From: Nautilus pompilius | Lineage: Eukaryota; Mollusca; Cephalopoda; Nautilida; Nautilidae | Assembly: GCA_018389105.1 (NCBI GenBank) | Contig: JACATO010001097.1 | Location: forward strand, 208,501-272,500 | Length of the DNA stretch: 64,000 nt | Direction: 5' to 3' | Shown here: in pieces, positions 11,551 through 59,309 of the stretch | How positions within the stretch are numbered: the first letter of the stretch is position 1 | How the letters are laid out: the number at the start of each line of letters is the position of its first letter | Position numbers and translations under genes: made by a program | The notes under the pieces: model-generated | What the model was told of the DNA's origin: nothing | The model's database searches: none | Seen by the model: the letters and a program-made list of their open reading frames with translations, nothing else

Positions 11551-11637
11551 ACTCTCTCTCTCTGTGTAATGACGTCATCTCTTTCTCTCTAATGACGTAA
11601 TCTCTATGTGCAATGACGTCATCTCTCTCTCTCTCTA
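11551..11637 (-). repeat. CRE-core minisatellite array 1 (short)
   Basis: About three and a half units on the CT-written strand: CT runs alternate with TAATGACGTCAT, TAATGACGTAAT and CAATGACGTCAT. This is the smallest member of the dispersed family whose unit couples a TGACGTCA palindrome to a GA/CT run. The second unit has lost the palindrome (TGACGTAA). Confidence 0.85.
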
Positions 11638-12760
11638 ACTGCTGCGTGCAGCCAAGCGGTCCCCAAAACACAGTGAGCCGAAACTCTCCTCAGCAATTTT
11701 CCTAGCTGGTGGCCCCTTTTCTCCCCTCCTTACTCAACAGGCCCCTCTGCTGTCTTTAGCTTCAAACATTTTTCTACAAATTCTAAACTAGAGTTTTTCA
11801 AAATATTTCAGAAAGTATTCCAGGTTAATACTCGCTAGTTAATCCACAAAACCTTCCAAGGATCCCTGTCTCCTCCGGTCGATCACGTTTCTTGGAGAAT
11901 GGTTGAGCTGGTCACAACTTTATTTCAGCTTTCTAAAAAATTGAATCGTTTCAAAGAGGATGCATTTATTGGATAGATTTTCTTCTGGAGAACAAATTTA
12001 TACCAAACCTTCCGATGACCCGGGTCATCTGCCCTCAATAATACTTCTTCCGGTCTTACGCTGTCCGGTGTTTCAACCCTTTCACTTTATTCTAGTACTT
12101 TCTTCACAGCAATAGAGCCCAATAAAATAAGAGCCTCCGGTCTGCGATATGATATAGTGCTGCTGTCATTGAACTGTGACGAGATGTGTGGAGCAGTCAG
12201 TGCACCTCTCGCTGACCTGCGTCCTTGACCTTGCACACTAGGGGTGAGGCCATGTTTGTTCATTCCCGATAACGTATGACGCACACCCTTAGGTAAAACA
12301 ACAAATGTGTTCTCGACTATATCTGTCTTTTTTAAAAGTCTGTTATTCCTTGACGTTCGTACCTGTCTTTCTTGCTAACACTATATCTTCACGGCCACTC
12401 TAAAACTCTCCCATAGGCACTATCGCCAATTAGAAACCATGTTAGACATCTGAGTTTTTCAAACCTCCACCGATCGATAGCTAAGGTGAATGTCACCGGA
12501 AGTCCACTCTTTTTTAGACGACAGATAGAAGGTAGAATACCTACAGCCCGTTCTGACGTAGGAGAGCAGGCCCTGGCATGCTCATTTGCTCTTGACAGAA
12601 TCACAATTCAAATAAAAGAAAGAAAAATCCCTAACGATCTTTATTAGGTATCTGTTGAAGCAGCCACAGAAACTGGTTTTCTTTTCAAAATAAAAAAATA
12701 TATATATAAATGTTCACTTTCGTAGTAAATCTTGGCCAGGTTTGAATTCACGCATCATAC

Positions 12761-12891
12761 CAAGTGAGACATATAGTGCAAACATGCTTTCATGCCACTA
12801 AGAGGCTTTGTGACGACATCTAATCTTAGATTATCCCTTCTCTCAGTTCTTACGATGTGCTTCACGCTGTGAAGTTCCCCATTACCAGTTA
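12761..12891 (-). CDS. candidate internal exon, unidentified protein
   Basis: On the minus strand a long T tract (about 13 T, then AATCCAAG) gives a strong acceptor. It is followed by 131 open bases (two bases plus 43 codons) and then TTG|GTATGA, an acceptable donor. The reading includes TGNGELHSVKHIVRTE and ends KACLHYMSHL. Phase runs from 1 to 0, compatible with splicing to the candidate exon at 7378-7546. The pattern of alternating hydrophobic residues (LRLDVV) suggests beta strands. I do not recognise the family. The acceptor is one of the best on this strand in the window. Confidence 0.33.
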
Positions 12892-13215
12892 CTTGGATTA
12901 AAAAAAAAAAAATTTTAATATCACGCAATATAAACACCTTTCGATCAATCTAAGACTAATCTGTCTGTGTTGTGAAACGGAGTGATAGAATTAACATTAA
13001 ATGTTCGCAGGGTTGTTCCGGTTTTATAACGAAGTGAATTAACAGAAGCATGTTTACTGCCTTTTCTACTTTCCTCACTGGTTGACTCTTAGCACTTCCA
13101 GGAATCGAAATCGCTTGCTGATTTAAGCGAATGGTCGTACGATTAACCTTAAATATATTTTAAGCTCTAATTATCGATGAAAGAGATGTCTGGAGAGTGC
13201 GTTGACAAACCCAGA

Positions 13216-13727
13216 AAAAAAAAAAAAGGAGGAGAAGGAAAAAGGGAAAGAAAAAAGGGGGAAAAAAAGAAAACGAGAGAGCGAGAGAGAGAGGAGAGCG
13301 AGCGAGAGAGGATGAGAGAGCGGTCGAGATCTCTAGGAGCGAGAGAAAGAGCGAGCGAGAGCAAGAGCGTAGAGTAGAAAGCGACCGAAGAGGCGCGGCG
13401 AGCGAGAGAGAGAAAGAGAGGAGAAGAGTCGAGCAAGGGATGAGAGAGAAAGAGAGAGAGCGAGAGAGACTGAGCAAGAGGCGAGTAAAAGAGAGAGCGA
13501 GAGAGACGAGAGGGGAGCGAGCAAGATCGGCGAGCCAGAGAGCTCTAGCGCGCGAGAGAAAGCGATAAAGTCGAGGTATAGCGAGAGATACAGAGCTAGA
13601 GCTAGAGCGAGAGAGCGAGCGAGCGACGTAGATGAGCTAGCTCTGCGAGAGAGACGGAGATAGATATCTCCACCATCCTCTCTCCATCTCTCTCTCGCTC
13701 TCCATCTCTCTCTACTCACCATTCTCT

Positions 13728-13799
<72 letters not shown>
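13216..13799. repeat. GA-rich tract followed by CT-rich tract (purine/pyrimidine inverted block)
   Basis: From about 13216 to 13660 the + strand is nearly all purine (A/G runs, then GAGAGCGAGC-type repeats with CpG-containing variants). After a short mixed junction (13640-13675) it becomes CT-rich, with an uninterrupted CT dinucleotide run of about 68 bases at 13732-13799. The two arms are roughly complementary in inverted orientation, so a long imperfect hairpin or triplex-type structure is possible. The open frames that cross it (Ser/Leu/Arg-rich on -, Glu/Arg/Lys-rich on +) are low-complexity shadows. Confidence 0.9.
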
Positions 13800-13804
<5 letters not shown>

Positions 13805-16800
13805 CCTAACTGTCGTTCTGTAGCACTACATCTTTCACCAAAAATTCCAGGTTTCTAATTTGTTTCCATTACTTATTTTGAAAATAAAACAAAAGCGCAT
13901 CGCGCCAGAGTGTAGGCCAAGCTTCAGTCATTCGGTGATTCGACTAAGGTACAGCTTTGAGTCAGGTGTAGCGACATCTTTTATGCAATAGAGCGCCTAA
14001 GTAAATTAACTTTTCTTCTTCTGTAGATATTTAGGGTGATAGCGTTTGTACAATATTATTTTAAACTGACTGAGCGGCATAGTAATCAAGAATAGCGTAA
14101 TTGGTATTTACTGATGCAAAATGACAGTTGGCACACCGACACGCCAGCCATTCTTAGGTATGGGTTCGGCTAAGTGAGAAGATCGGCAGTGCCCCTGATT
14201 GAGTAAATTCCAAGTGGTTGCCCGCGTGGTTCAGTCGTACGGCGTTGGACAGAAAGGGAAAATGCAAAAAGTTTTTTTTTTTTTAAATTAAAAAAATTTT
14301 TTTTAATATAAAAACTCTGGAGATAAATTAATTATTATTCCACGACCGCCACCTTGTCCATTCGTCACGTCCATCTTCCTTCTCGTCTCACCCTGACCTC
14401 GCTGCTCCGCCAGCGTGCTGACTTTCTCTCGAAATTCAGCATTTACTAAACGATATCGGCTTATATCGCTGAATGATTTCGGCCGCATTATTTTAAAACG
14501 AGGCTCGTCGAGGCGGCAATGTTTTATCCATCCGCGTGTTAGTACCTGTAGATGTTAATCCGCTAGGCAGACTCTTTTCCTTTACCCGTAGCTACAAAGA
14601 AGGAAAAATCGTTCATTTATCCGTCCCACCGGGTTTCACGGTACAACAAAAGGAAGCATCTTGTGGCGTATGACGCGCTGGTCACGGTTGAATGCATTTT
14701 CCTGAACTATAGGCGCAGATCGATTCCGTTAAACTCATAAACGTTGGATTGTTTGATCAGTCGCGTGCTCTACGCTTGTACGGGCTGCGGCAAGGTGTTG
14801 TGCTTTCTCCGATGGATGAAACGAGTCCTGCCTGGAAAACTGGATGCGCGCAAAGAAACGGGGCTCATCAGAATGGATCCTAAATCCAGAAGATGCTTTA
14901 AAACAGCTTGTACTACAAACTGCTTTGTGAGCTTTCGTTTATGGCTGAACCCTTAAGACAGCACGTCTGATATTGGAAACATTTCGTTGACAGTATGAAT
15001 CACCCATCACGGTGGCATTTGAAATGCATATTTTGTTAAAGTAAGCATCATTTCGGTGGAAAAAAAATATAGGTTTCCTATAATTACCCAAGCCAGATCA
15101 ACATGTTTTCCTCACCTGTGAGAAATGTCAAACTTTAGTTTAGTTCATACCTGGGTGATGAGACTTACCTGCATACCAATGCATTTATATGTATCCTTAA
15201 ATGCTCAATTATAGAGATGCGCCGCTCTGCTATAAATGGAACTGATATTAGATTGGTGGATAAATCAGAGACTTTCGCGGACTATGCCAAGTTACACAAC
15301 GAGGCTAATTCTCTCTCATCAAGACGTTGGTCAATTGAATACGCTAAGCAAAGGGCAACTAAGTTGCTGATCGACTTTAACATCTTTACATGTAAATAGA
15401 TTTGCGATGGCGATCTATTAGTCATAAAGATGCCGCCTGCTCTGAAACATTTTCTGGGTACAAAGCGACTCCGAGCGAGATTTGGTAACTAATACCGACC
15501 AGACGCGAAAATGGCTGATGTAGGCCCGAATCTGAACCCGATGGAGCATCGCAATGGGAAGAAAAGGGATTCCTCTCGTGGAAACTATTGCAGGGCTGGC
15601 CCCGAGGCTTTCTGCATAGAAAGGAAGAGAATGCAGCAGATCCACATTAGAAACCGTTTAGTGAGGCAGCGCGAGAAGGGAGGGATCGTCGTCCGTACAA
15701 GTAGAGGGGTCACCGCGTCACGATCGCTCCTAAGAAATCAGGCGGCACTTAGCATCCAGCCGCTATGTTACAGCGGTGTTAATGCGCAGGTAGAGAACCT
15801 ATCGCAGTTTTAATCTCCTATAGGTAACCGCCTTTCAGCGTTTGAATTTATAGCTGTACTTTCCTGGACCGCTGGCGGAAGGTGGGGTGATGACAATAAC
15901 GGAAAGACAGCTATCTGCTATCGTTACATCAGCTTCTTGTTCCCCGATGACACGTGACTTTTCGGGACCTTCCTGCTGACGCCCAGGAAGATCTCTTACT
16001 CGGCGAGGGGAATAAACAAACCCATAAAGTATCCCCCCAACAAAAGAAAGACTAAAATTGCGAAGCGGAACTATGATGTCTTTTGAAGGAAAATGGACCA
16101 ATATCCATCAATCAGTCCGAGCCTCGTTAAATCTGATAAATCGCCAGTTTAACGCAAATCCGAGGAGATATGATGCCACCTGAAGACTTGAACAGGTCGC
16201 GGAAAATGATCTATGTTGGGCACCAGCTTCACGTCAGATTATTTCTGCTCGAGATGGTCTATGGAAGGCATCATACAAATATCCATCGCAATCTGTTGTT
16301 TTCGTTCCTTCCGTTAATCGATAACACGATCGGAGTTTTCATTTGCTCCGTTAACAAGACGGACAAAAGTAGCAACTGGTTAACGTCAGAAGACTATTTG
16401 GCTAATTGGAGCAATCGGATGCTGGATGATACGGAACAAGGCTACATATAAAAAATGGTATTAACTTATATACATAGAATACATATTTAGAATATGGAAA
16501 GCATCGTACTTTTGAATAATTTTGTACAAAATTCCCTAACAACTGAAGAGAGCATTTTAGATTAAAATAAAGTCTTTAATATAATTGTTAATCTTCTAAA
16601 AGAAAATAAACGGCTCGTATTTGTTTTTATTTATCTTGCTTCAGTTCAGTGTGCGATTTCCGGTGTCATTTTAGTTTCTATGGAATGTTTTGGGAGACAA
16701 AAGAACGACAAATGTTTTCAACTTAAAAAACAAAAACACAAACAAACAGAAATCGACATATTTTGAAGAGAAGACGGCTTTTCTTTATTCACAGTCACCT

Positions 16801-17038
16801 TTAATAATTAAATAAGTATAGCAGTGACACTTTAAATAGAAAATTAAAACCAGAAAGCATTCTTCTACTTTTATAATGAAACTTATCGAAAATACCACAG
16901 TGTTGGAACGACGGGTCTCTTATCGTACACATCTTGTCTGCTATTCTTTTCTTTTCATCGCCGTTACCTAAACAAGGTAAGTGCTGCCACCTTTAGTTAG
17001 TAGAAACAACGACAAAAAATGCGTACTTCGAATACTGA
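13800..17038. other. non-coding stretch, no element recognised
   Basis: No gene could be supported. Weak coding-like pieces: an open + frame at 15217-15399 (60 codons, no splice support), and a 20-codon minus segment near 15170-15231 bounded by an acceptor-like TTTATAG and a GTAAGT donor. A minus frame around 15835-16101 is open but has no clean borders. Confidence 0.45.
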
Positions 17039-17520
17039 TAGAGAGAGAGAGAGAGAGAGACAGAGAGAGAGAGGACGTCAGTACACGAAGAGAGAGATGA
17101 CGTCATTACAGAGAGATGACGTCAGTACACGAAGAAAGAGAAATGACGTCATTACAGAGATGACGTCATTACATAGAGATTACGCCATTACATAGAGATG
17201 ACGTCAGTACACGAAGAGAGATAAATGACGTCATTACAGAGATGACGTCACTATACGGAGAGATGACGCCAGTACACGAAGAGAGAGATATGACATCATT
17301 ACATAGAGATTACGCCATTACATAGAGATGACGTCAGTACACGAAGAGAGATAAATGACGTCATTATATAGAGATGACGTCATTACATAGAGATGACGTC
17401 AGTACACGAAGAGAGAGATAAATGACGCCATTACATAGAGATGACGTCAGTACACGAAGAGAGAGATAAATGACGTCATTATATAGAGATGACGTCATTA
17501 CACAGAGATTAGAGAGAGAG
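17039..17520 (+). repeat. CRE-core minisatellite array 2
   Basis: It opens with a GA run and continues as alternating units: GATGACGTCATTACA plus GAGA, and GATGACGTCAGTACACGAAG plus GAGA. The distinctive dialect here is the GTACACGAAG spacer and CATAGAGAT linker. Several copies carry TTACGCCA or TGACGCCA instead of the perfect palindrome. A longer block of roughly 120 bases recurs about three times, indicating higher-order amplification. Confidence 0.95.
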
Positions 17521-19643
17521 ATGGCAGTTTTTCTGAATCCTCCTTTAAGATCTAAGAGATTGTCCAATTTAATTGGGTCTAATTAATATAAGAAAATCTC
17601 TTTGCCTTCAGCAATCTCCATGAAAAGCAATTTCATCCTACATTGAAAAATACGTGTGAATGTAAAAACTGATTTAATTTTTATTTGCTTGGAGATAAAA
17701 TTATTACAATATATATAAATAATTTAAAAAACCCAAATAAATGATATTTATTTAGCTAAAAGCTATTTAAAGTAAACCAAAAACTGCTGGAACATTTTTT
17801 TTTTTTTTGTAATGCAATAAAGTCGGTCGATAATTATTATTCACGAACAAACGCGAGGAATTTTGCGAATCTGCCTGATTAATGTATTGCGTTGAGTATT
17901 TTGTAACTTTCGCGTCTCCGGAGATCTGGCAGGAATAATATTACAGCCGCTGGTGTGTGAGGGAAATTATAAACCCTTATACAGACAAACAACCCTGACG
18001 TAGATTTACCGTAAGACTTTCGTTTAGGATCAGGAGTTTGTAAACATTTAGGCACGAGAATAAATAAAGCAAATGGCGGCATGCACAAAAGGCATTTGAC
18101 ATTTTCACGCTCTTTCGCTTTCAGGAACAATAAAATATTAGGTAATATAAACAACATGAACCCCTAACATCATTATCATCATCATCATCATCTTCATCTT
18201 CTTCTTCTTCTTCTCACAAAAAAAGCTCGAAGCTATACCTATAAAAACAATTCCTGTCGTAACTGGTAACACTGCCGTTTCAGCTCACCCAGTTAAAATC
18301 GTATTGTCATTGCTAGTAAACTCAGCGACGGAATCTCTGATATCGTATAGAGTAGTGACGGAAACCAATATCAAATGACTTCCGGAAACGGCTCGGCTGG
18401 TAAAGAAAACAAAAGACGAAGAGTTAACTCGGGGGCCTATTATTTTAACGAATTTGTTTATTTATTTATCAGGGGAGGTAATTAGTTTGTTTATTTATTT
18501 GTCTACAACGAGAAATTAAGGACAGATTTTAGGGGTGGTACTGATTTTCTCTTAAAAAAAAACAAAAACAATCAAACGTGACGTCAGTAAACTTTGATGG
18601 TGATCGATGACGCGTGTGAATAACTCCACGGCGTGAACTTCAAACGCAACCCACCTCACAGAGGAGGAAACATTCGATGAAGTGTTATTCTTTCCCGTTA
18701 TTGTTCCCAGGATGTTGCATGCAGAGTGGTCTGCCCTTCAACAAGAGACGTTCGGGCGGACAGGTCAGCTCGGACGACCGGTAAGGAAAAGATATCGAGA
18801 CCACCGATAGGTTACTGGAAAACGTGAAACGGTGCGTGATTTCGCACCCCCCCAACTTTGCTATTTCCCGGCTTGTTTCTCGTTCTACCCACGTGGCAAA
18901 GAGGGACGGCAGGGGCGGGTAATTTGCATCGGAATAACTAATAAATAAATACACGTTTAGAGATAACTTAATACTCGGAACATCAGACACCCCCCCACCC
19001 TGCATCATCTCTGTTTCTCTAGTGGCAACAAGAAAATTTATCGATAGAAGTATCGAACCCCTGGGGGGGGGCGATGTCGGGCTGACGACAACACAGCGAT
19101 ATCCATGTACTATCCAAAACTATAATCAAAAGTACGTAAGTGGATTATTACGGTAGTTCACCCGCCCTCTCTCATGTTTTAGCACCGCGACAGTCGCTAA
19201 TAGGTTGGAGAATTAACTTCTAACCTCACAACCATTTAAAGTTTCAACTGACCGCAAGGGTAGTAATTGACGGAATGAGTTGCGCGAACCAGGCTGCTAG
19301 TAACCGCTGTCTTATCTGCCCTTTAATTAAACACGGCTAATTTGGAATTTCTACCATTCCCAGAATTATTTACTAGCCTACGTTCAGTGGGTTGTTTAAA
19401 AAGCAAACTCTGCTTAAAATATATTTAAAAATTTAATTTTTAAATAATAGCTTCAGAATAATATTGGATTAGATTCCACAAGGTTGAGATAACTTTTAGA
19501 GACTGAGAAGTAAAACGTTTTGGAATATCCGGTGTTTATTTCAACCAATCGTCCATCTTGGTTTCTGTTCCGGTCCGCGTCTAAAGTACCGGGTAAAGCG
19601 GACACGCTAAACGATAATCCCAAGAAAATGTATTTAAAACTAG
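17521..19643. other. non-coding stretch with small simple repeats
   Basis: No gene recognised. It contains a CAT/CTT trinucleotide run at about 18168-18213, a solo TGACGTCA at 18579-18586, and a G9 run near 19062. The rest is AT-rich unique sequence. Confidence 0.5.
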
Positions 19644-29770: not shown

Positions 29771-31380
29771 GAGAGAGAGTGAGGTGACGCCATTACAGAG
29801 AGAGGTGACGTCATTACAGAGAGAGAGGTGACGCCATTACAGAGAGAGATGTGACGTCATTACAGAGAGAGATGTGACGTCATTACAGAGAGAGGTGACG
29901 TCATTACAGAGAGAGGTGACGCCAATACAGAGAGAGGTTCGCCATTACAGAGAGATATGTGACGTCATTACAGAGAGAGAGCTGACGCCATTACAGAGAG
30001 AGAGGTGACGCCAATACAGAGAGATGTGACGTCATTACAGAGAGAGGTGACGTCATTACAGAGAGGGGTGACGTTATTACAGAGAAAGGTGACGTTATTA
30101 CAGAGAGGTGACGTCATTACAGAGAGATAGTGACGTCATTACAGAGAGAGATGACGTCATTACAGAGAGATAGTGACGTCATTACAGAGAGAGGTGACGT
30201 TATTACAGAGAGAGGTGACGTTATTACAGAGAAAGATGACGTTATTACAGAGAGGTGACGTTATTACAGAGAGATGTGACGTCATTACAGAGAGGGGTGA
30301 CGTTATTACAGAGAGATAGTGACGTCATTACAGAGAGAGGTGACGTCATTACAGAGAGATAGTGACGTCATTACAGAGAGAGATGGTGTTATTACAGAGA
30401 GAGGTGACGTCATTACAGAGAGGGGTGACGTTATTACAGAGAGGTGACGTCATTACAGAGAGGGGTGACGTTATTACAGAGAGATAGTGACGTCATTACA
30501 GAGAGAGGTGACGTCATTACAGAGAGATAGTGACGTCATTACAGAGAGAGATGGTGTTATTACAGAGAGAGGTGACGTCATTACAGAGAGAGGTGACGTT
30601 ATTACAGAGAGAGGTGACGTCATTACAGAGAGAGGTGACGCCAATACAGAGAGAGGTTGCGCCATTACAGAGAGATATGTGACGTCATTACAGAGAGAGA
30701 GCTGACGCCATTACAGAGAGAGAGGTGACGCCAATACAGAGAGATGTGACGTCATTACAGAGAGGGGTGACGTTATTACAGAGAAAGGTGACGTTATTAC
30801 AGAGAGGTGACGTTATTACAGAGATAGTGACGTCATTACAGAGAGAGATGACGTCAATACAGAGAGATGTGACGTCATTACAGAGAGAGGTGACGTCATT
30901 ACAGAGAGGGGTGACGTTATTACAGAGAAAGGTGACGTTATTACAGAGAGGTGACGTTATTACAGAGAGATGTGACGTCATTACAGAGAGGGGTGACGTT
31001 ATTACAGAGAGATAGTGACGTCATTACAGAGAGAGGTGACGTCATTACAGAGAGAGATGGTGTTATTACAGAGAGAGGTGACGTCATTACAGAGAGAGGT
31101 GACGTTATTACAGAGAGAGGTGACGTCATTACAGAGAGAGGTGACGCCAATACAGAGAGAGGTGACGTCATTACAGAGAGAGGTGACGTCATTACAGAGA
31201 GAGATGTGACGTCATTACAGAGAGAGATGTGACGCCATTACAGAGAGAGAGGTGACGCCAATACAGAGAGAGGTGACGTCCTTACAGAGAGAGATGTGAC
31301 GTCATTACAGAGAGAGAGAGGTGACGCCATTACAGAGAGAGAGAGAAAGAGATGACGTTAGTAGAGTGATAGAGAGATAG
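29771..31380 (+). repeat. CRE-core minisatellite array 3 (1.6 kb, largest)
   Basis: On the order of 75 tandem units of about 20-21 bp, each GTGACGTCATTACA followed by a GAGAGAG-type run. Variants include TGACGCCA, TGACGTTA and TGGTGTTA in place of the palindrome, and ATAGTGACG or GGGGTGACG linkers. Higher-order duplication is evident: the marked block containing GACGCCAATACAGAGAG and a GGTTCGCC or GGTTGCGCC variant recurs with a 719-base offset (29921 and 30640), and a rare ATGGTGTTATTACAG variant occurs at about 30381, 30550 and 31057. A 21-bp unit keeps frames open (VTSLQRE, DVITERG on +; NDVTSLC on -). The predicted frames here are by-products of the repeat. Confidence 0.97.
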
Positions 31381-33958
31381 AAGGGAGGGATCAGCCTCCG
31401 CTCTTCGCTCTATATTTAGAAGTTATGGCGTCCACTTTTAAACGCGAAAAAACGAATAAAAATGGCGACATTTCGACTTTGAGAGAGCGAAGCTAAGCCA
31501 CCGACCGCTCTTCCCGCTATGTTGTCGATTACTAGTTTCTTCTTTTGTTTTCTCTCTGTCGCTGAAAACCTGCAAGCCGCGATCGGTTTAAACGCGCGCT
31601 CCCCAACTGAAATCCTCTCAATATTTCTCTCTTAAAACTCTGAACATTCAATGACCTTAAAGTCAGTCTACCCTAAAAAAACAAAACGAACGGTGATGAA
31701 TGAAGAAAGTTAGTCTTCGAGTGCGCGGAACTTGAGTAAAAGACCGGTTTTATAGATAGCAGCCCTACTACAAACAGCCTACAGAATAAGAACCTGTCAG
31801 CTCACAGGGTGAGACCCGAATTACCCTAGCAGAATAAAATTTATTACGTAACAATCTGAAGATTTATTATCTAAAGAAAAGGTTTAATCGCCCATCGACC
31901 CCTCTCTTTTGTCACCTTTATGGTAGCAAGAGGTCGGATCATTACGAAACTGCATAGTGGCCACTCACAGCATAAACCGGATAACAAGATCACCTGAACT
32001 CACTTAACCCTTTACGTAATATCGGTTTATTGGGCAAACATTTAATTTTTTTTGCAAGATATTGGCTCATTACGCAAAAATCCTTTTGCATAATATTTGT
32101 TCCTGGTGTGCGTTTATTACCTGTTACATAGCATAAGTTGATTAAGTAACGTGCGCCAAATACCTGGATTTATCGTGTTTGTGTTTGCGTTACACGTCAC
32201 AGGTGTTTTCTCCATGACACAAGAACACTCTGTAGTTTTACGGGGAAAGGGGAGACTATTAGGATAAGCAAAAAGGCGAGAATTGCTTATTCGCTGATCC
32301 CCCGGGGACCTGGTCGAGCTTTTGTCTGTCGTAATTAGAAACAGGTGCTCGCCTGGCACCAAACCGGGCCGAAAACCGAAGAGCCGGTTATTAATAGCCC
32401 TAAATAAATGTAATGTGATAGGATTGCTTGTTACCGACGAAGCGGATAATGGACGCCATGTTAATGTTGGAGGTTGATTAGATTCCAGAGAAAGACAAAT
32501 GGATTTTTAAATTTTTTTCTATTTCAGAGATAGTTACTCTCCATCCTCCTCCAGTTTCCACTCATGCGGCTGTTCGTTCGTTATAGCTACAGTGCAAGCA
32601 TTCCTCTTCCCTGTGCCAAAGAAGAGCGTTTACATTTTATCGGAAACTCCTTCCTCCCAACCAGAAAGGTTGGACATATTTTTATTGATTTTACTTCTCG
32701 TGCAATCGATTAATGAGTCAAAAGTTATGGCAAATATTCTGGCTGTAAGAATTTTTCTTTCCTTGTTAAGAGAGACATGTGTTCTGTTTTAGTGTCTTGA
32801 ATATAAGCGAACAACAAGGGAGGCAACTCAAATGAGTAAGGTGAAGACTTGAAAAAGGATATGAAGAAGAATTATCGCGTATTCCCCCCCCCCACACCCA
32901 ACCTCTCAAATCCAAGAAACTTAAACGTGGGGGGTGTTAGTGATGCAGTAGCCAGCCCCGTGTGGCCTCTGGTACGTTGGTAATTTACTTCTAGTTAATT
33001 TAAATCTACTTAAAAAACATCGCATCATAAGCCAAAGATAAAATCGGCTGAAGAACACGGACGAGGCGGTTTAATGGAAGGGGATTACGAAAGTGTATCA
33101 GTAAACAGAAGTAAGACACTGTAGGTCTGCGAAGGCGGAGTAGGAAGACCAACGATTGACTCTCTCATGATGATGAAGCGACCAATTTTTTAAAAAATTC
33201 TGATGACATGTATTTTCAGTACATTTATTAGCCTTGCTTGTTCCGCACCTAAGTCTAAATATTTAGAAACTTTGGAGGGAAAAACCCCTTCGGGTGTTGT
33301 TTGCCCCTCTCAATAATTTTGCTAAAACCCTTTATCTACTGATAATTTACATATAATACTTTACTGCGATGTCTAAGGCCCTAAACGTAGATATTCGTTT
33401 TCAAACTATACATAAATAATGACTAATAATGTGTTTAAGGCCCCTTATCACTAACTATGTGGGGCCTTATATGACTGCACAAATCACTTAGTTATGTATA
33501 AGCAATTTATGAGTCAAATTAGGAGAACCTTTGAGAGCCTAAGATTTATTTGATATAGTTAGTATCCAATCTTTTCTATTATAAGAGAGACCAAAGAACA
33601 ATAATATTATGCACAGGAGGAGACAATAAATTCTAAATATTCTAGATATGGCAAAAAAATTAATTTTCGGTCATGTATGCTTCATTGAAAATATATATCT
33701 TTAATAGAGTATAGACATTTAAATACGAGCATTCGAAAAAGCAATATTTGTTTTTAAGAGAACTTTATAAAAAGATATTTGTATTTGTATTCAGTTATTT
33801 TTAAAAGACATCTTTCCAAACTTTTACTTTTATATTATTAACGACTTTTAGTCGATTATGAATTTATATTATTATATAGAACTAATGTCTTTAAGTATAA
33901 AGCGATAATAAATAGTGTCATAATGTTATTTCACATACTTTGTAAATTATAAATTTAG
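31381..33958. other. non-coding stretch
   Basis: No gene recognised. It holds a C10 run near 32885. From about 33300 to 33950 it is very AT-rich, with GGGGCCTTA / TAAGGCCCC-type motifs near 33375-33470. Confidence 0.5.
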
Positions 33959-33999: not shown

Positions 34000-34112
34000 A
34001 CAGAGGGATGACGTCAGTACAGATAGAGATTGCGTCATTACAGAGAGAGAGATGATGTCATTAGACGCTGGGGAGGATATGACGTCATTACAGAGAGAGA
34101 GAGAGAGAGAAG
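34000..34112 (+). repeat. CRE-core minisatellite array 4 (short, hybrid)
   Basis: Four or five units: GATGACGTCAGTACAGATAGA, a GCGTCATTACAGAG unit, GATGATGTCATTAGACGCTG joined to GGGAGGATA, then TGACGTCATTACAG plus a GA run. The TTAGACGCTGGGGAGG insert links it to arrays 5 and 8. The array lies inside an open + frame (33959-34210, 83 codons) just upstream of the hAT relic. Confidence 0.88.
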
Positions 34113-40145: not shown

Positions 40146-40537
40146 GAGAGAGAGAGAGAGACACAGAGAGAGAGCGTTGACGTCATTACACAGAGAGATG
40201 ACGTCATTAGAGAGATTACGTCATTACACAGAGAGATGCTGTCATTACACGCTGAGGAGGGTGTGACGTCATTAAAGAGAGGGAGCGCTGACGTCATTAC
40301 ACAGAGAGATGACGTCATTACACGCTGAGGAGGATGTGATGTCATTAGAGGGATGACGTCATTACACGCTGGGGAGGATATGACGTCATTAGAGAGATGA
40401 TGTCACTACCCAGAGAGATGATGTCATTACACGCTGAGGAGGATGTGACGTCATTAGAGAGATAACGTCATTACACAGAGAGATGATGTCATTACACGCT
40501 GAGGAGGATGTGACGTCATTAGAGAGAGAAAGAGAGT
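40146..40537 (+). repeat. CRE-core minisatellite array 5 (CACGCTGAGGAGG dialect)
   Basis: It opens with a GA run. Units alternate between GATGACGTCATTACACAGAG and a longer form in which CATTACACGCTGAGGAGG is followed by ATGTGACGTCATTAGAGA. Several palindromes are mutated to TGATGTCA or TAACGTCA. The CACGCTGAGGAGG (or GGGGAGG) insert is also found in array 4 and, inverted, in array 8. Confidence 0.95.
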
Positions 40538-42819: not shown

Positions 42820-43235
42820 GTCTCTCTCTCTCCATCTCTCTGTAATGACATCATTTCTCTCTCCGTAATGACGCCATTTCTCTCTGTAATGACATCATAT
42901 CTCTCTCTCCATCTCTCTGTAATGACATCATTTCTCTCTCCGTAATGACGCCATTTCTCTCTGTAATGACATTATTTCTCTCTCCGTAATGACGCCATTT
43001 CTCTCTGTAATGACATCATCTCTCTCTCCATCTCTCTGTAATGACATCATTTCTCTCTCCGTAATGACGCCATTTCTCTCTGTAATGACATCATATCTCT
43101 CTCTCCATCTCTCTGTAATGACATCATTCTCTCTCCGTAATGACACCATTTCTCTCTGTAATGAGGTCATTTCTCTCTCCGTAATGACGCCATTTCTCTC
43201 TGTAATGACATCATTTCTCTCTCTCTCTCTCTCTC
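42820..43235 (-). repeat. CRE-derived minisatellite array 6 (palindrome lost)
   Basis: Written CT on the + strand. Units read CTCTGTAATGACATCATTT or CTCCGTAATGACGCCATTT. Almost no unit keeps TGACGTCA: TGACATCA and TGACGCCA alternate instead. A higher-order unit of 77 bases (for example 42847 to 42924) recurs several times, with CATCTCTCTG spacers. The GA/CT part is maintained while the palindrome is not. Confidence 0.94.
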
Positions 43236-51640: not shown

Positions 51641-53856
51641 ATAGCCACTGTCTGGTGAGAGTTAGGTTTTGTCGGATGCGCACGGAGCCGAGGGAGAGAA
51701 GTGAAGATGAAGAAGTAGACTATGTACCTCCTCCACGCATCCCTAACTACAAAGTTACCGTCTGAAGCAGAGAACGATGTTATTGAGTAAGAGAGCTTTT
51801 AATGGGAGACACGGAATATTACGAAGAACTTTACCGACGTGGAAAAAAAGGGGATCTTCAGAGCAGAAGACTCTTGATGTTGTCTTTCCACAAAATGGAA
51901 GAACGGGAGACGCGTGATGACCCAGTTACGCAGATGACGTAAATACCTTTTATGTGAGGAAATCTTGACCAAAACTTGCTTCCCGGGAACGTAACTCATG
52001 AAATTATTTCAGGGTAATGCTAGCTTCGCTCTTGGCTCGTGTCACTATAAGTAGAGTCTTTGAGGAACGCTGCCCCAACGGAAAGCGAGGAAGCCCTGTG
52101 AATGCTTTGCTTTCTCGTGCCTGACATTAAAGGTGACACTTTTGTCTGAACATCTCGCTAACGTTTTCCTGAATTTTTAAGAAATAAGCTAATCAAGCTA
52201 AAGTTTTGGCCGAAAGTCTTTGGAATTTGTTTCTAGTATAATCCCCTTACGTAATAACTTAATTCATGGCTCCGACACCGCCCACTGGAAAATACTGTTT
52301 CTGCAGTCAATCCAAAACGGTAATTCCATTCGAGGAAACTCGCCGGTGTGGGTTTCCTCTAGCCGTTTATTTAGATGCCAACAGGATTAGCGGTAATATA
52401 TCGAGTTGCCGTAATTAGTTTTCTTTGATTTTTAATCTCTCTTTCTTTTTTTTTGTGGTGCTTTTCGTGCAATAAAAAGACAAGCAGGCGCCCTGGAGAG
52501 CTACAGATCGCGGTACCAAGACCTCCTTACGTCACGGGTGCCGAAATTATCTGAAAATGGGAACACTGCCCAGATACTTAACAGACAGTGGTTAGAGAAT
52601 TGTTATAAACATCGATATACGCACACCAATAAAGACAACAACAACAACAGAATTGACTCTCCGTGGTTCTGGTAGCCAGGATCAATCGCCGGAGCGGTAG
52701 GTGTATTAACCAGTTCCCTTCCAACAACCAGGCGACGGGAAAACTAATAATTCTTCCATCGTCTGTCATATAATCTATCTAGGCGATGTGCGAGCAGCCA
52801 ACCACACCTTTGAAATGAACTTAATAAAAATTCTTTCAAAAGAAGTAAACAAGAAGGGAAAGACCTTTCAACGAGGAATTTGCACGAAGAGCTTCGTGAA
52901 TGGAAACTGCGCCAAGGCTATTTCTTCAATGAACTACTGACTGATGGTTTCAGGTAGGTATTGGTCATTGTGGGGCCTCATCCTTATGGCGTAGAGTGTC
53001 CAAAAGAGAAAATTTACCGTCTCAGCATTTCTGGCCTCCCAAGCATATCTACAATTTTTGTTTGTTGTCGGCTCGTCCAGTCCGGCTATTCTAACGAATC
53101 CAAACCGGAGGACAAGGTAACAGTTTAGCCAACTCCCCCTCCTGCCACGGTTAGTTAATATGCGCTGCTCCCGATAGAAGGTTAACTTCTGCTATTCGGG
53201 AATATACAAAAACAGCCGGCCAAGTTTTACTGTCTGAAACCATGGAAGCCGCCCACCTAACAACGGCTCTAACATCTTCTTTTATTAACAACTTTCGAAG
53301 TCCTGGGGAAAAAAAGGAAAAAAAAGAAAATTTGGTGGGGTGTTTACGGTACTGGCTTAAATCTAATTTCTCTCCGTTTATTACGAGAGCCGAATTTTGT
53401 TCAGAAGGTAGTGTGTGGTTTCTTTGCTCCTCCTCGTCGTCGTCTTGTTCTTACAGTTATCCGGCCGGGCGGGGGGTGGTGCCAGCAGCCCCGACAGCTG
53501 AGTCAGTATGCTAGCTTCGGTGGTACTAGCAACAGAATAAAACAACGCAAAAATTTTGAATTGCCCCCCCCCCGGAAACAAACAAACAGTTAAAAAAAAA
53601 CTCATTTAAACGCATTTACCTAGATTAATTAAAAATTAAAACCTTCATCAATACATTTACAAAAAAAAAAAAATGCAATTTAGCACTAGCCCGATTTTTC
53701 AGTAATATCGTCTCCCCGGATAAACGTAATTATATTTGCCGAGTTTATGGTACATTAGAGACGTACTTTGGATTACTGCCATGTGTTGTGTGCTCTGCAA
53801 AACCTGCCACGTACAAGAGAACGGGACGACGGACGTACATTAAAATTAAGAAAAAA
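51641..53856. other. non-coding stretch with weak open segments
   Basis: A + segment at 52843-52953 is open for 36 codons (including LHEELREWKLRQGYFFNELL) and ends at TTCAG|GTAGGT, but its acceptor is poor. A CpG-rich GT/CT segment lies near 53430-53520, and A-runs near 53310 and 53660. No element recognised. Confidence 0.4.
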
Positions 53857-54747
53857 CGAGAGAGAGAGAGAGAGATGACGTGAGGAGAGATATGACGTCA
53901 GTACAGAGAGATGACGTCAGGAGAGATATGACGTCAGTACAGAGAGATAGATAGATATAGAGAGATGACGTCAGTACAGAGAGATGACGTCAATACAGAG
54001 ATAGATAGATAGATAAATAGAGAGAGAGATGACGTCAGTACAGAGAGATGACGTCAGGAGAGATATGACGTCAATACAGAGAGAGATAGATAGATAAATA
54101 GAGATGACGTCAGTACAGAGAGGTGACGTCAGGAGAGATATGACGTCAGTACAGAGAGATAGATAGATATAGAGAGATGACGTCAGTACAGAGAGATGAC
54201 GTCAATACAGAGATAGATAGATAGATAAATAGAGAGAGAGATGACGTCAGTACAGAGAGATGACGTCAGGAGAGATATGACGTCAATACAGAGAGAGATA
54301 GATAGATAAATAGAGATGACGTCAGTACAGAGAGGTGACGTCAGGAGAGATATGACGTCAGTACAGAGAGATAGATAGATATAGAGAGATGACGTCAGTA
54401 CAGAGAGATGACGTCAATACAGAGATAGATAGATAGATAAATAGAGAGAGAGATGACGTCAGTACAGAGAGATGACGTCAGGAGAGATATGACGTCAATA
54501 CAGAGAGAGATAGATAGATAAATAGAGATGACGTCAGTACAGAGAGGTGACGTCAGGAGAGATATGACGTCAGTACAGAGAGATAGATAGATATAGAGAG
54601 ATGACGTCAGTACAGAGAGATGACGTCAATACAGAGATAGATAGATAGATAAATAGAGAGAGATGACGTCAGTACAGAGAGATGACGTCAGGAGAGATAT
54701 GACGTCAGTGCTGAGAGCTGACGTCAATACAGAGAGAGAGAGAGAGG
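53857..54747 (+). repeat. CRE-core minisatellite array 7 with 212-bp higher-order repeat
   Basis: Basic units are GATGACGTCAGTACAGAGA, GATGACGTCAGGAGAGATA and GATGACGTCAATACAGAGA, interspersed with GATA tracts (GATAGATAGATATAG and GATAGATAGATAAATAG). The whole pattern repeats with an exact 212-base period: the GATAGATAGATATAG landmark starts at 53946, 54158, 54370 and 54582. About 4.2 copies are present, almost identical to one another. The palindrome TGACGTCA is intact in nearly every unit, in contrast to arrays 3 and 6. Confidence 0.97.
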
Positions 54748-56572
54748 CTACGAAAGCTACACCTTTATTCCCATGATTTTTTTTCTAAAAGCGGGTGATA
54801 CCAGCAGCGGACAAAAAAAGAAAAAAAAATGTTGAATGGCATTTATGGGTGACATTATATATATAAAAAATGATTTCAGTATACTTCGAACTTCAGCGGA
54901 ATAATAAATATGAGTCAGAGCGTCGAATGCTGATTCCGAGCTCGTATAGCGAAGAGGAAATGGGTCGAGCCAAAAGAATTCTGGGAAAGACCCTCAAGTT
55001 TGCGCCCCAAAGATGCCATTATTTACGCTTTTCAATGACTAAATCGTAACCTAGTCAAACCGAGATAGCTCCCCCTCCATTTTTAGATTCAAGCCTAACG
55101 ACCCCTGACAGTTTATTGCAACCAGACGTGAACTTTAGATCTAATTTCTGCTCGGCACTGGACTCTATGACCGATAAATATTAACTCTTTCCCGGATGTC
55201 CTGTGCAAGAAATGACGATGTCTCATCGCGTCAAAGCGAACTAACAGCGGCGAGACGGACAAACCCACACTGTAAATTGAGCCGTGGACTAACCTGGAAC
55301 CCTTTTAGAAATCTCGTCTGTCGGACCAATTTATTAGGTATAAACGACGCCAGCTATACAATAAAGGGACCGATTTGAAAAAAAAAACTGGGTCCGCGTG
55401 TCCTTTAATAGTTTCTATCTTATCCGTGTATACTGCGCTCTACGTTACACTAGACGAATTCATCCATGAACTGTAATCCAGGGCGGTGTCCTGGAATCAA
55501 CGCCCAATGCTGCATGAGATGGACTGATGGACTCGTCGTGCTTCATCCCCGGTAATTGGAAATGTTTTAAGGCTGTTGTTGTAAATCCCCTAATACATTC
55601 ATGCTTTCTTGTGCTAAATAATATATATATATATTAGTGTCTGATAGTGAGAAAGAACAACTCTGGCGTTGCTTTGGCCGTGGTAACTGCCGACATGGAT
55701 TACTATTCCTACCGCGGAGAAGCTTTCTTTCTAGCGGATGGAACTTTCCAAACTCCCCCCCCCCACAAAAAAAGGATTAAGAGAGAAACAGGCTCGTGGA
55801 TGTCATATTTACCTAATCAATAACCGCGCCGTGTAGCGACTGATCGATGCTACATCTAACCAATCAATTTATTTTTGTTTAACAATCGGTTCATGCCGTG
55901 TTTACCTGATCGATGTCTTTTCCGCTCCACGACACGTTGTGGCAAGTCGAGCGAGTGCGCGAGACGAGCCCGACCGTGTGAACTCACCCGACAGCCGCAC
56001 ATCCTCCACGGCGAGCCGGACTGCGGTCGTTCCGTGTGGACAGCAGCGCCACACTTGAGCGGAGCGGGAACTAAAACCCGCCCCGTTCTTGTCGGCAACA
56101 GCGACACTTCAGCCCAATTCCCTCGCCCCGACCGACTGACACACGTCAGTTGACACCATACATCCGGAAATTTTTTTTTATAAGAAACCGTCAAGTCTAA
56201 CGGAGTTGTGTACTCCTGTGTACGACAGCGGTAAGGTGTCGTAGTGGCGAGTTCCTGTCAGTGCTGCACTTTGGCATTTTTCGTGTGCACCTGCTTCGTA
56301 GGTGTAAGGATGTACATCTTTGCTTCATGATGGCTACCGGTTGAAAACGAATCCATGCGAAATCCTGACATCCTTAAACTACGGTCTTATTAAGCGACGA
56401 TTCTAGTTCTTGGAGAATGGAATAGATCACGTTAAACGTATCCTATTTTATCCTAAACATTTCCCGATTGATGCCGGGTCAGGGAGACTTAAAACAAAAA
56501 AATAAACCTATTCTAACCGCAGTGTGTTTCTCCGGGTAACCGTGATCCACTCTGAAATCGTAATACGATTAC
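54748..56572. other. non-coding stretch with CpG-dense patch at 55900-56150
   Basis: The patch at 55900-56150 is CpG-dense and open in several frames on both strands. On - a segment ending in ATCAG|GTAAAC reads TCHNVSWSGKDIDQ, but it has no credible acceptor. It could be a promoter/first-exon region for the minus-strand gene model, or simply GC-rich DNA. A C9 run lies near 55756 and a TA run near 55620. Confidence 0.35.
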
Positions 56573-56743
56573 CAGGAATATTTCACTACTTGCCCCGTCC
56601 TGGCCTAGAATCGTTACATGATACCTTCCGGGTTCGAGGACTGCTGATACTTGATCAACTGCTGGAATTTTTAAGACTATGACATCCGTATCCATAGAAA
56701 AAACCGCCCTTTTTATTTCATCATTAATGACTCGCATTGAGAA
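56573..56743 (-). CDS. candidate exon of the minus-strand chain, beta-rich
   Basis: The acceptor region CTTTGCTATCCCCGATGG... ends in TTTAG; an in-frame stop overlaps the AG, so the frame opens exactly at the exon border. The 171 open bases (57 codons, phase 0 at both ends) end at CTG|GTAATC. The reading includes VIVLKIPAVDQVSAVLEPGR and then YHVTILGQDG. The PGRYHVTI..Q motif resembles the PGtYtVtl..N end of PKD/Ig-like beta-sandwich domains; this is a similarity of pattern only. Its phase permits direct splicing to 50409-50523. Confidence 0.35.
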
Positions 56744-56991
56744 CTAAAGTTACACGAAATTTGCCATCGGGGATAGCAAAGACATAATGCAAAACAAAAA
56801 TAATTCGGAAACTAAGTTTACTTTCCTGAAGCCTGTTTTTTTTTACAAAAAAGCTCGGGAAGCCTTCGTGGCTTGTAGATGACTTCCAGGAAAAGGAAAC
56901 GCCTGTCAATAATTTCATTCTAAATGTTTCTATTAACCATCACAGCCGCGAATCCATCCATGTAAGTTACGCTCGTTTACGTTAGGCACTG

Positions 56992-57055
56992 TAGAAGTAA
57001 ATTGGCAGACATTCTTTGTCCTCTAGAAGTAAATTGGCAGACATTCTTTGTCCTC
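56992..57055. repeat. perfect 32-bp tandem duplication
   Basis: Two adjacent identical 32-base copies beginning TAGAAGTAAATTGGCAGACA. It lies about 130 bases outside one end of Tc1-like relic E. Confidence 0.95.
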
Positions 57056-57188
57056 TATTCTTTCCCTAACCCAGACACACTCTAGAAGAAATCTTGTTCT
57101 CTATAAGCAGGGCGCTCGAGTAAGGGCAAGCTGTTCCAACACCTCGAAATTAAAGCGCTCGTAAATGTTGTTAATTGCTTTGCCAATG

Positions 57189-58012
57189 TACAGTGAATCG
57201 AAAAAGTATTGCACTACCTTAGATTAGGCAGTATTCTGATGAAGCTAATTGCTGGAATATGTTTACCTTCATGCTAAGTGAAACGTCACAATGTCTCCAC
57301 GTTTATATGCTAATTACTTAATACATTTTGCAGTATCAAATAAATAATCAGCTATTTGTTTAAACTTGCAAAATGATGATAATTATTCACATATAATAAC
57401 TTTAATTATCCCAATAATTTGAATGGCAACATCTGTAACAGCTTCCAAAGGCTCTGTGAAGTGGATAAAAGTAGATTTTATGCAATATTCAGCAAAAGTT
57501 GTTTTCGATATTTGAACAGTCGTAGATTTTTAAGTGACTCATTGATTTGGGTGTTCTTTAGTTTCCTCTATGTTGAATCGCTTCTCGCAGCCTTTTTACA
57601 GAGTTTAGATCTGGTAACTGTGCAGGCTCGAGCAAAAAAAAGCCCGTCTCCCACACAATTTGTGTTACTGAGGATCTTTGTTCTGTTGGACGACATGATC
57701 TCATTCAAACAGCTTCCTCGCGGATGGTAACGTTTTTCTTTCCGGTTTGTCTTTGTCTGTGATTCCTTCTATGATGTCTAATGGACCAATTGCTTTTGAA
57801 ACCATTGCTGAGGCTATGAAAACAGTACAACTTCCACACATCCTATATATACAAAATAATTACGTGATTATCTACGTTCTTGTGAACCTGAATGTACTTA
57901 GGCACATTTTTATCGAATTTCAATTTCACTGCAATAAAGTTATACAAGAATGACTTCTGCGAGTTACTTATTAAACAGAAATTGTTAGTGCATCTTATTT
58001 CTTCGAATTATC
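57189..58012 (-). mobile_element. Tc1-like transposon relic E with both degraded ends
   Basis: The left end starts TACAGTGAATCGAAAAAGTA, a Tc1-type terminal sequence (TACAGTG...AAAGTATT). Near 57983-58012 a degraded inverted copy (AGTGCATCTTATTTCTTCGA) marks the other end. On the minus strand, near 57620, the decayed SPDLN signature is recognisable (CACAGTTACCAGATCTAAAC), preceded by a VVQQNKDPQ segment corresponding to QQDNDPKH. At about 820 bp the copy is shorter than a typical 1.2-1.7-kb Tc1 element, so it has internal deletions. All frames are broken. Confidence 0.75.
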
Positions 58013-58448
58013 AAGTCCCATCTGCTGCTTAAGACAAATAGCCTTTGCATATGTAGCTTCCGCAATCACTGACAAGTGATTGGCTTTAAAACCGATTGAC
58101 TTTATCCGAAGCAAGATGTTTAGTTGTAAAAAAGATACTTAAAAAAAAAACAACCGCTATCAGGATGTTATTCCGCTCTAACGCGATTACCGCTGTCGAC
58201 ATTTTTCACTTTCTGAAGCATTAATTTCTCTTATTGGCGATTTTCTCGTTAATCTGCATCAGTGTGTCTCGTTCTCAAAAGCACCGATCAACGGCATCCT
58301 GTCGGGGATTCCGCTACCAAAGGTGACGCAACCGCGCGCAAAGATTCTCCAGATTAACCACTTCGCTGCCAGCGTTCATCTATCGTTGGAAAACCAACAT
58401 CGCAGAAGCATTTTACGATAATGCTTTTTTTTTTTTTTTTTCTTTTAG

Positions 58449-58550
58449 TTGTCGCGTTCCCTGGCGCCGGGTATCCGGAAAAACTGCGTGAAGAACCGTT
58501 TGCGTTCTTAATAAGATCCGATGCGCCGAGATACAGTTTCCGTTTCCGTG
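58449..58550 (+). CDS. candidate exon (+), unidentified
   Basis: A T18-CTTTTAG tract is an exceptionally strong acceptor. The frame after it is open for about 95 codons to 58738. The first 102 bases end at a CGTG|GTAGCA donor and would encode AFPGAGYPEKLREEPFAFLI followed by RSDAPRYSFRFRG. The GC content and CpG density are higher than in the flanks. The donor is weak and no partner exon is certain. Confidence 0.22.
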
Positions 58551-58989
58551 GTAGCAGACCCGCGAGTAGCCGGTTTTGGCGGCGAGTTCTAACGTCGGGA
58601 AAGCCCGCCCCATCTTACAACAGCAGCATCTGGCGCGCATCCTTTAATGTTTTCCTTTTGGCCATTGGCGTACAATCCCCGGCCACATCTGTTTTGATTT
58701 TGTCGGCTTTCCGCCGAGCACCGATCTTCGTGGTTTAAGAAGGAAAAATTGTGTTTATTGTAAGTACCAGACAACTTAGGTTTCTCACCAGCTCCGCCGC
58801 AGTAGCAAAGCATAATTGTCAGTCCTCTCCCCCCCCACCATCAAGTACTGTCACAAGTTCATAAGCCGGTGTTCCATCTGAAAGTGACCAGAAAAAGAAA
58901 GCTTCTTCATAGTCGAAAGCATTTGGTAAACTCTGCGCAGCTTCTCATGTAAACATTGTCTGAAGTCATCGTTTACAGTTAATTTCTTT
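58551..58989. other. short stretch before array 8
   Basis: Open frames continue on both strands to about 58813 but have no further splice support. It contains a C9 run near 58830. Confidence 0.4.
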
Positions 58990-59309
58990 GCTCTCTCTCT
59001 CTCTCTGTAATGACGTCACATCCCCTCAGCATGTAATGACGTCATCTCTCTGTAATGACGTCACATCCCCTGTAATGACGGCACACCCTCTCAGCGTGTG
59101 ATGACGTCATCTCTCTCTGTGATGACGTCACATCCCCTGTAATGACGTCATACCCTCTCAGCGTGTAATGACATCACACACTCCTCAGCGTGTGATGACA
59201 TCATCTCTCTGTAATGACGTCACATCCTCTGTAATGACGTCATACCCTCTCAGCGTGTAATGACGTCACATCCCCTCAACGTGTAATGACGTCATCTCTC
59301 TCTCTCTCC
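58990..59309 (-). repeat. CRE-core minisatellite array 8 (CACGCTGAGGAGG dialect, inverted)
   Basis: Written CT on +. Units read CTCTGTAATGACGTCACATC with CCCTCAGCGTGTAATGACGTCAT. Read on the opposite strand this is ATGACGTCATTACACGCTGA with GGGGATGTGACGTCATTACAG, the same dialect as array 5 (40.1 kb) and array 4 (34.0 kb). Most palindromes are intact; TGACATCA and TGACGGCA variants occur near 59080 and 59170-59210. Confidence 0.95.

Follow-up and report, generated by a model that had tools for sequence, protein, structure and literature searches.

The tandem repeats described here, from the genome of Nautilus pompilius, resemble dispersed minisatellites and other short satDNA-like arrays in that short tandem arrays occur at many loci, build higher-order repeats and carry array-private variants. 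Their unit differs from those of other dispersed minisatellites in being fixed and compound, with a perfect 8-bp CRE palindrome followed mostly by (T/G)TACA, and in lying in one orientation within a purine run. The core, TGACGTCA, is exactly that of the CRE, the binding site of CREB/ATF proteins. Regulatory CREs, however, occur singly or a few together, and the CREB consensus flank has R at -1 and Y at +8, whereas the CREs of the Nautilus arrays stand in tandem and their commonest form has no pyrimidine at +8. Many short dispersed arrays are also present in the genome of another mollusc, the oyster Crassostrea gigas, but there the Cg_HINE arrays lie within elements that have flanks in common (PMC7492417), while no common flank was found for the Nautilus arrays. 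A last point of comparison is the M26/CRE recombination hotspot of fission yeast, whose 7-10 bp motif is the same as in the Nautilus arrays; ATGACGTCAT, the M26 motif from that work, was also assayed for hotspot activity in budding yeast (PMC3534124; PMC2677671). The yeast sites, unlike the Nautilus arrays, are one or a few introduced copies. Purine tracts have likewise been associated with hotspots, although a section heading of the source states that microsatellite tracts are not the main reason for this link (PMC1543642).

The window, i.e. the whole stretch of 64,000 nucleotides that was analysed, contains eight arrays, delimited by Tandem Repeats Finder (TRF) and by reading their edges from the sequence. 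Five lie on the + strand and three on the - strand, for a sum of about 4,177 bp, which bears out the preliminary description of eight arrays in both orientations with a total of about 4.2 kb. The array unit consists of a GA (purine) run, TGACGTCA and mostly (T/G)TACA.

The first array (11555..11634, - strand; TRF and sequence) is small, with 3-4 degenerate units and CT runs on the + strand. The second (17040..17509, +) shows TRF periods of 19, 27, 48, 65 and 82 bp and both TTACA and GTACA suffixes; 14 of its 18 near-sites are perfect CREs. The largest (29776..31381, +) comprises 73 copies of a 21-bp unit according to TRF, with 69 near-sites, 37 of them perfect, and a longest internal repeat of 147 bp. 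It is followed by an array of four units with a GA run at its end (34002..34092, +), traced by TRF to 34060 and by the exact unit to 34092, whose CGCTGGGGAGG spacer resembles that of the array at 40.2 kb (40171..40527, +; TRF). The latter has a 65-bp higher-order unit with a CGCTGAGGAGGATG spacer. The array at 42823..43223 (-; TRF) has the core TGATGTCA on its GA strand and a 119-bp higher-order unit, and none of its 14 near-sites is a perfect CRE. In the array at 53869..54743 (+; TRF), a 212-bp higher-order unit with GTACA and GGAGA suffixes is repeated 3.9 times at 99% identity, which is a mark of recent growth; 33 of its 34 near-sites are perfect, and its longest internal repeat reaches 540 bp. 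Finally, the array at 59005..59301 (-; TRF and sequence) has a 92-bp higher-order unit with a CGCTGAGAGGG-type spacer.

Perfect CRE cores, of the kind recognised by CREB/ATF, are present in seven of the eight arrays; the statement that the core is common to all fails only for the 42.8-kb array. The window holds 113 perfect copies of TGACGTCA, six of them lone, rather than the hundreds of potential sites proposed earlier. Exact TGACGTCATTACA occurs 56 times, against none in each of 100 shuffles, and exact 13-mers amount to 78, spread over seven of the eight arrays, when the GTACA form is included. A unit of about 20-21 bp describes best the 29.8-kb array (period 21), while the five medium-size arrays have mixed spacers and higher-order TRF periods of 44-212 bp. 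TTACA is indeed one of the two main suffixes, but the 53.9-kb array has mostly GTACA or GGAGA, and genome-wide GTACA is 4.5 times commoner (27,454 vs 6,059).

These last figures are the exact counts of TGACGTCAGTACA and TGACGTCATTACA, respectively, in the 727.6 Mb genome; together the two 13-mers occur 33,513 times, against 99 for reversed-pattern controls (68 for TGACGTCATTACA and 31 for TGACGTCAGTACA). The counts rule out that the unit is absent from the rest of the genome, and by estimate the arrays form thousands of blocks across it. With a tandem unit within about 10-100 bp and many loci, the family is a dispersed minisatellite. No published description of it was found among the titles and abstract openings listed (supplements aside, and with few subscription papers): of 5.39 million papers, 7 contain one or more of six strings of 12-13 bases, and no title among these 7 deals with repeats, Nautilus or molluscs, the main text of the Nautilus genome paper, in its searchable part, has no match for 'tandem repeat' or 'satellite' and does not describe the family (PMC8257504), and neither does the available text of an octopus repeat paper (PMC13282606). 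As for other content of the window, none of the 10 scanned open stretches (out of 296 of 60 aa or more) gave a Pfam match over the cut-off, and there was no Rfam match over the gathering score and no tRNA.

Kinship between arrays was evaluated on a sample of 33 arrays from 25 sequences. The median longest shared string was 20 bp for 36 same-locus pairs, 19.5 bp for 20 same-contig pairs and 19 bp for 472 different-contig pairs, so that the arrays of the window are no more alike than arrays on different contigs. It could be argued that a single array gave rise to all eight by spreading locally in this region, considering that a CGCTGAGGAGG-type spacer is common to the 34.0-, 40.2- and 59.0-kb arrays, that the exact 40.2-kb spacer with CRE is rare, two of its three genome-wide sites being in the window, and that the window has seven clusters of exact 13-mers in 48 kb, compared with at most five on contig C1. 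However, the remaining site with that spacer belongs to a different contig, all 28 pairs of window arrays share at most 29 bp, and no long multi-unit block is common to any of them. The shared strings are too short, and local spread was rejected as hardly credible. On C1, the maximum of five clusters in 48 kb was compatible with random placement (p 0.33), and orientation switched 9 times between arrays against 12.3 expected (p 0.12).

The internal repeats of arrays, in contrast, are longer than the strings shared between arrays: the longest per array has a median of 40 bp, with a maximum of 540, and the larger arrays have private higher-order repeats, exceeding 100 bp in 6 of 33. Because the longer arrays have long internal repeats and neighbours are no more alike than distant arrays, the arrays are probably the product of expansion in situ, starting from short seeds. 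Since internal repeats are short (9-40 bp) in 17 of the 33 arrays, the small ones, separate growth is seen in the larger arrays, and for the others it is presumed.

The reading that we favour, with a probability of roughly 0.6, is that of a GA-anchored minisatellite, dispersed genome-wide, in which seeds were placed at GA tracts and each array then grew separately by local duplication. Seeds of one or two units would lie in or beside (GA)n microsatellites, the GA tracts offering a handle for homology or slippage, and would have moved by GA-tract-mediated conversion or end joining. Each array would then have expanded independently of the others, through tandem duplication on the spot by slippage, unequal exchange or break repair, and this would account for the private higher-order repeats of the longer arrays. 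Against this reading, a (T/G)TACA suffix and an orientation that all arrays share call for a single ancestor and hence for some means of dispersal, which is presumed here. What is observed is genome-wide spread, a fixed CRE/GA orientation, GA at most array ends and no common flank.

As to orientation, all 247 copies of TGACGTCA(T/G)TA in the 33 arrays are on the GA-rich strand, with none on the opposite one; two arrays have no exact copy, and their near-copies favour the GA-rich strand 6:0 and 8:0. A same-strand GA run is found within 60 bp of the 5' end in 31 of 33 arrays and of the 3' end in 27, in keeping with the suggestion that the GA run acts as a recombination handle, and GAGAGA follows the unit in 26 of 34 listed units adjoining AT-rich flank. 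Eleven of the 13 long GA/CT runs of the window are within 300 bp of a unit, compared with 0/6 AT, 0/1 CA and 2/5 TTA runs. GA runs alone are not sufficient, because 63 of 173 GA/CT runs in L009-L028 are away from any unit. No GA run accompanies the lone units C600 and C831. Seeding at GA tracts is suggested by this anatomy; GA at array ends could also be a product of array growth rather than its cause.

The preliminary description had fared less well in proposing spread by a mobile element. All-against-all BLAST of the 1.5-kb flanks of the 33 arrays revealed no common carrier: the matches consisted of remnants of GA runs or arrays and of segments of a single locus that overlap, with the exception of a 55-216 bp repeat that three loci have at differing distances from the arrays, and of one 33-bp match. 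When a 5.5-kb stretch with two arrays was searched against the genome (scores for 40 of the 2,832 candidates, with frequent words skipped), all non-self matches among those listed were inside arrays. A mobile carrier was rejected on these results, and the conserved flanking modules of Helentrons and HINEs were not seen around the arrays. Although Helentron carriers are described as spreading short tandem arrays through the oyster genome (PMC7492417), it is very unlikely that the Nautilus arrays are the central repeats of such a non-autonomous element.

Lone full CREs, in otherwise unrelated sequence, show a large excess whose size varies with the base next to the core. For GTGACGTCAC, 3,848 copies were counted genome-wide, against 310-715 expected, whereas the numbers of CTGACGTCAG and TTGACGTCAA, tandem copies being set aside, lie close to or under those expected; the flank that lone CREs favour has R at -1 and a pyrimidine at +8. 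Because of this flank dependence a CRE reader is probably active, and the counts suggest genome-wide recognition of lone CREs by a bZIP protein.

Such a reader, together with the 304 perfect CREs in the 33 arrays and one partial pKID (CREB) match in the genome, might indicate that binding by CREB/ATF bZIP proteins maintains the arrays, as a sink, enhancer platform or boundary. We consider this unlikely, with binding of the array core in vivo remaining putative. Core and suffix vary to similar degrees, given mismatches of 0.8-14.9% over the eight CRE positions and 2.7-13.2% over the five suffix positions in 524 units; the commonest array form, RTGACGTCAG, has G at +8, where lone CREs prefer a pyrimidine (this position is T in the less common TTACA form); and palindrome-keeping double changes are nearly absent (TGATATCA in 1 of 392 units). 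The 42.8-kb array, moreover, grew without any perfect CRE, and the intact-CRE fraction is unrelated to internal repeat length (rho -0.08, p 0.66, 33 arrays; per unit, rho 0.11, p 0.59, in 25 arrays with six or more sites).

Separately, a hairpin or dimer constraint found no support in compensatory palindrome changes, and there is no sign of CpG decay by methylation, with CpG observed/expected at 1.04 for the window, compared with 0.97 for the sample. Strand-asymmetric C-to-T decay was not significant (C4T vs G5A, 14 arrays against 7, p 0.12).

Alternatively, the core could drive its own amplification: ATF/CREB bound to ATGACGT(CAT) would induce breaks in meiosis, as at M26/CRE in fission yeast, and the arrays would expand when such breaks are repaired using other units or GA tracts. 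Alongside the 304 perfect CREs of the 33 arrays, ATGACGT occurs 232 times on the GA strand and 179 on the other, and the full ATGACGTCAT, the M26 motif of the yeast work, 100 times; the hotspot association of purine tracts and the higher-order expansion of the larger arrays also agree with this. Hotspot motifs are, however, expected to be lost through biased conversion, yet lone CREs are in excess; furthermore, intact CREs are unlinked to internal repeat length and one expanded array has no perfect CRE, so that we judge this mechanism rather improbable. Equally doubtful is a wider proposal, that one bZIP-directed process fills the genome, both keeping or creating lone RTGACGTCAY sites recognised by ATF/CREB and amplifying CREs that came together with a GA tract into thousands of arrays, possibly via ATF-bound M26-type meiotic breaks. 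The lone RTGACGTCAY sites involved would number thousands to tens of thousands, in unrelated sequence.

Perfect transcription factor sites arrayed at many loci provide a natural test of whether repeats serve as sinks for factors. They likewise bear on the question whether repeats in an animal can be made to grow by a motif that resembles a hotspot. Of the arrays and the lone-CRE excess, the latter merits the closer attention: should other animals lack such a flank-dependent excess, it would point, in this slowly evolving cephalopod, to an unusually large CRE network or, alternatively, to mutation or recombination directed by the motif. Lone CREs are no closer to arrays than random positions (median 1,654 vs 2,117 bp, p 0.43; 23 of 27 sites, the other four being in sequences without an array). 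The six in the window, in non-array sequence, are at 7116..7123 (no strand assigned), 18579, 20844, 21560, 39779 and 63199.

All eight tandem arrays that the preliminary description had placed in the window were found again, five on the forward and three on the reverse strand, with one strand only within each array, in keeping with its claim of both orientations. The unit had been described as a CRE followed by TTACA and a GA run; the CRE core and the purine spacer stand, while the suffix is mostly either TTACA or GTACA. The core is TGACGTCA in the window arrays, except for one array (42823-43223, reverse strand) which has a one-base variant instead, and higher-order units of 44-212 bp are present in five of the eight. 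The window holds 113 perfect CREs, 56 copies of TGACGTCATTACA (vs 0 in shuffles) and 22 copies of TGACGTCAGTACA; its 10-kb neighbours on either side (L029 and L030) are array-free. The window also contains, at 1-526, a 39-bp unit repeated 13.5 times at 95%, without a CRE basis and truncated by the window start, and, at 13275-13800, a tract of about 0.5 kb, GA-rich and then CT-rich, which has no CRE and forms a GA/CT inverted arrangement.

The genome searched, in which the window is C1052:208501-272500, comprised 727.6 Mb in 2,558 contigs; the published N. pompilius assembly amounts to 730.58 Mb and was the smallest sequenced cephalopod genome at its publication (PMC8257504). The genome-wide count of CRE plus GA units proposed earlier, performed with exact suffix forms, revealed thousands of copies outside the window, with genome-wide figures of 6,059 for TGACGTCATTACA (68 for the control) and 27,454 for TGACGTCAGTACA (31 for the control). 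On contig C1, the 105 matches listed formed 25 clusters within 1.05 Mb, 6 of which consist of a single unit, the GTACA-form matches behind this clustering being the first 100 listed, every one on C1. Extrapolation from 4.2 matches per cluster on C1 gives roughly 8,000 clusters in the genome, single units included; by the same yardstick, cluster density in the window is high (7 clusters in 48 kb, compared with a maximum of 5 on C1). Match positions also showed closely spaced CRE series in other contexts (GTGACGTCAC at 42-bp spacing, and CTGACGTCAG series; G000:C1:1046291-1046720, C1:774434-775318 and C22:24140-25390, on contigs of this genome), so that CREs recur in more than one tandem series.

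Array anatomy was studied in the window and in 24 fetched stretches (223 kb), 22 of which were picked for TGACGTCATTACA matches, the other 2 being the window neighbours; with at least three near-matches to the CRE defining an array, 33 arrays were obtained. The orientation of the unit relative to the GA-rich strand is fixed: of the exact copies of TGACGTCA(T/G)TA, 247 lie on the GA-rich strand and 0 on the opposite one, and in the two arrays lacking exact copies, near-copies favour the GA-rich strand by 6:0 and 8:0. A GA run lies within 60 bp of the 5' end in 31 of the 33 arrays and of the 3' end in 27; of the six arrays lacking such a run at the 3' end, two (window 11470 and 58961) arose because the clustering rule had drawn in a CRE-like site beyond the array. 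A pattern for units lying no more than 30 bases from an AT-rich word gave 34 rows (two overlapping), GAGAGA following the unit in 26; four sites fetched from this list were two array ends and two lone units without GA (contigs C600 and C831). The arrays are a dispersed minisatellite, anchored by GA runs and built on a CRE core, and represent a new form of a known kind of repeat.

Spread by a mobile element, which had been suggested earlier, would call for a common carrier, and none was found in the 1.5-kb flanks of the 33 arrays. What these flanks have in common is GA or array leftovers and overlapping pieces of one locus; the other matches were a repeat of 55-216 bp at three loci, at differing distances, and one 33-bp match. 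When a 5.5-kb query with two arrays was searched against the genome, with common words skipped, the matches listed (40 of 2,832 candidates scored) contained, beyond self, array sequence only. Nor did the proposed array-to-array comparison set neighbours apart, as the longest strings shared by same-locus pairs (median 20, largest 42, n = 36) are no longer than those shared by pairs on different contigs (median 19, largest 39, n = 472). Because these strings are short and the longest internal repeats are longer (median 40, above 100 in 6 of 33 arrays, maximum 540), sequence comparison indicates growth in place, at least for the larger arrays. That a CRE hotspot might drive this growth is a testable idea; the fission yeast meiotic hotspot motif M26 is given as ATGACGTCAT in PMC3534124.

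Strong selection for CRE function within the arrays appears disfavoured. Over 524 units, mismatch is similar across the eight CRE positions (0.8-14.9%) and the five suffix positions (2.7-13.2%), these units having been chosen by likeness to the 13-base consensus, which hides more diverged ones. In addition, the intact-CRE fraction does not track internal repeat length across the 33 arrays, double changes preserving the CRE palindrome are almost absent from array units, and the array at 42.8 kb expanded without any perfect CRE; taken together, this evidence speaks against such selection. Predicted binding to the arrays would be favoured only by the motif itself and by the one pKID match in the genome, which is partial (model positions 5-24 of 41, 35.6 bits) and has an in-frame stop.

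Single CREs outside the arrays are in unexpected excess. In a masked sample of 240.5 kb, almost all from array-bearing loci and with arrays and purine tracts removed, 27 lone copies of TGACGTCA were present, compared with 2.3 (order-2 model) or 5.7 (order-4) expected and with a mean of 4.3 and a maximum of 11 in 60 order-3 simulations; bootstrapping by sequence gave 61-169 per Mb vs 9.5 expected. Those in non-array sequence of the window lie at 7116, 18579, 20844, 21560, 39779 and 63199. The 12 single-base variants of the CRE occurred at 0.2-2.9 times expectation. Other palindromes were over-represented to a smaller extent (CTGTACAG 28 vs 4.3, TCACGTGA 13 vs 2.7, CCACGTGG 7 vs 1.8), and simple repeats were likewise in excess. 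At E 1e-3, no two of the 27 lone CREs had flanks (±100 bp) in common. With the two sides pooled, position -1 was G in 21 cases, A in 20, C in 11 and T in 2, so that purines are favoured and T is avoided.

Genome-wide, GTGACGTCAC occurs at 3,848 sites (310 expected by the order-2 and 715 by the order-3 model), CTGACGTCAG at 1,256 (462 and 886) and TTGACGTCAA at 450 (564 and 921), all raw counts being inflated by tandem copies. Of the 50 distinct sites at the head of each listing, 39, 20 and 33, respectively, lay outside any visible series; extrapolating these fractions, which come from the first contigs of the listing, gives isolated-site ratios of about 9.7, 1.1 and 0.5 to the order-2 expectation and of about 4.2, 0.6 and 0.3 to the order-3 expectation. 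It should be noted that the reversed controls (926, 690 and 2,032 sites) exceeded their own order-2 expectations (571, 488 and 1,177) by 1.4-1.7 times, and the order-2 model is therefore too low by about the same factor; the contrast among the three flank forms remains. With tandem copies removed by this extrapolation, lone CREs are in large, flank-dependent excess, about 4-10 times for GTGACGTCAC depending on the model, with CTGACGTCAG and TTGACGTCAA near or below expectation.

Contexts were fetched for GTGACGTCAC only, for all 39 isolated sites, two of which also belong to the 27 lone CREs. Around each of the 39, about 115 bp on, there was no further CRE; no pair shared flanks at E 1e-4, and no consensus extended beyond the 10-mer; among the first 20, weaker flank matches of 15-28 bp were seen (best E 7e-5 in that smaller set), and one site (L052) lay in a dispersed repeat. 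The flanks were slightly GC-richer (43.6 vs 41.0%) and more often contained GGGCGG (15 vs 5%), with no enrichment of CCAAT, TATA or CACGTG. A bZIP protein recognising the site in a sequence-specific way would leave such a pattern; the route may have been either selection on regulatory sites or a motif-directed process. Of all these results, the flank-dependent excess most merits further study, the arrays being moderately interesting.

The genome also gave 14 matches to molluscan-type haemocyanin units (PF14830), at two loci with seven each; Nautilus haemocyanin subunits consist of seven units. Compared with single-unit solved chains, one of these units scored highest with 4yd9_C (613.8 bits) and 1js8 (593.5), which are squid and octopus chains, followed by 8tnv (486.7).
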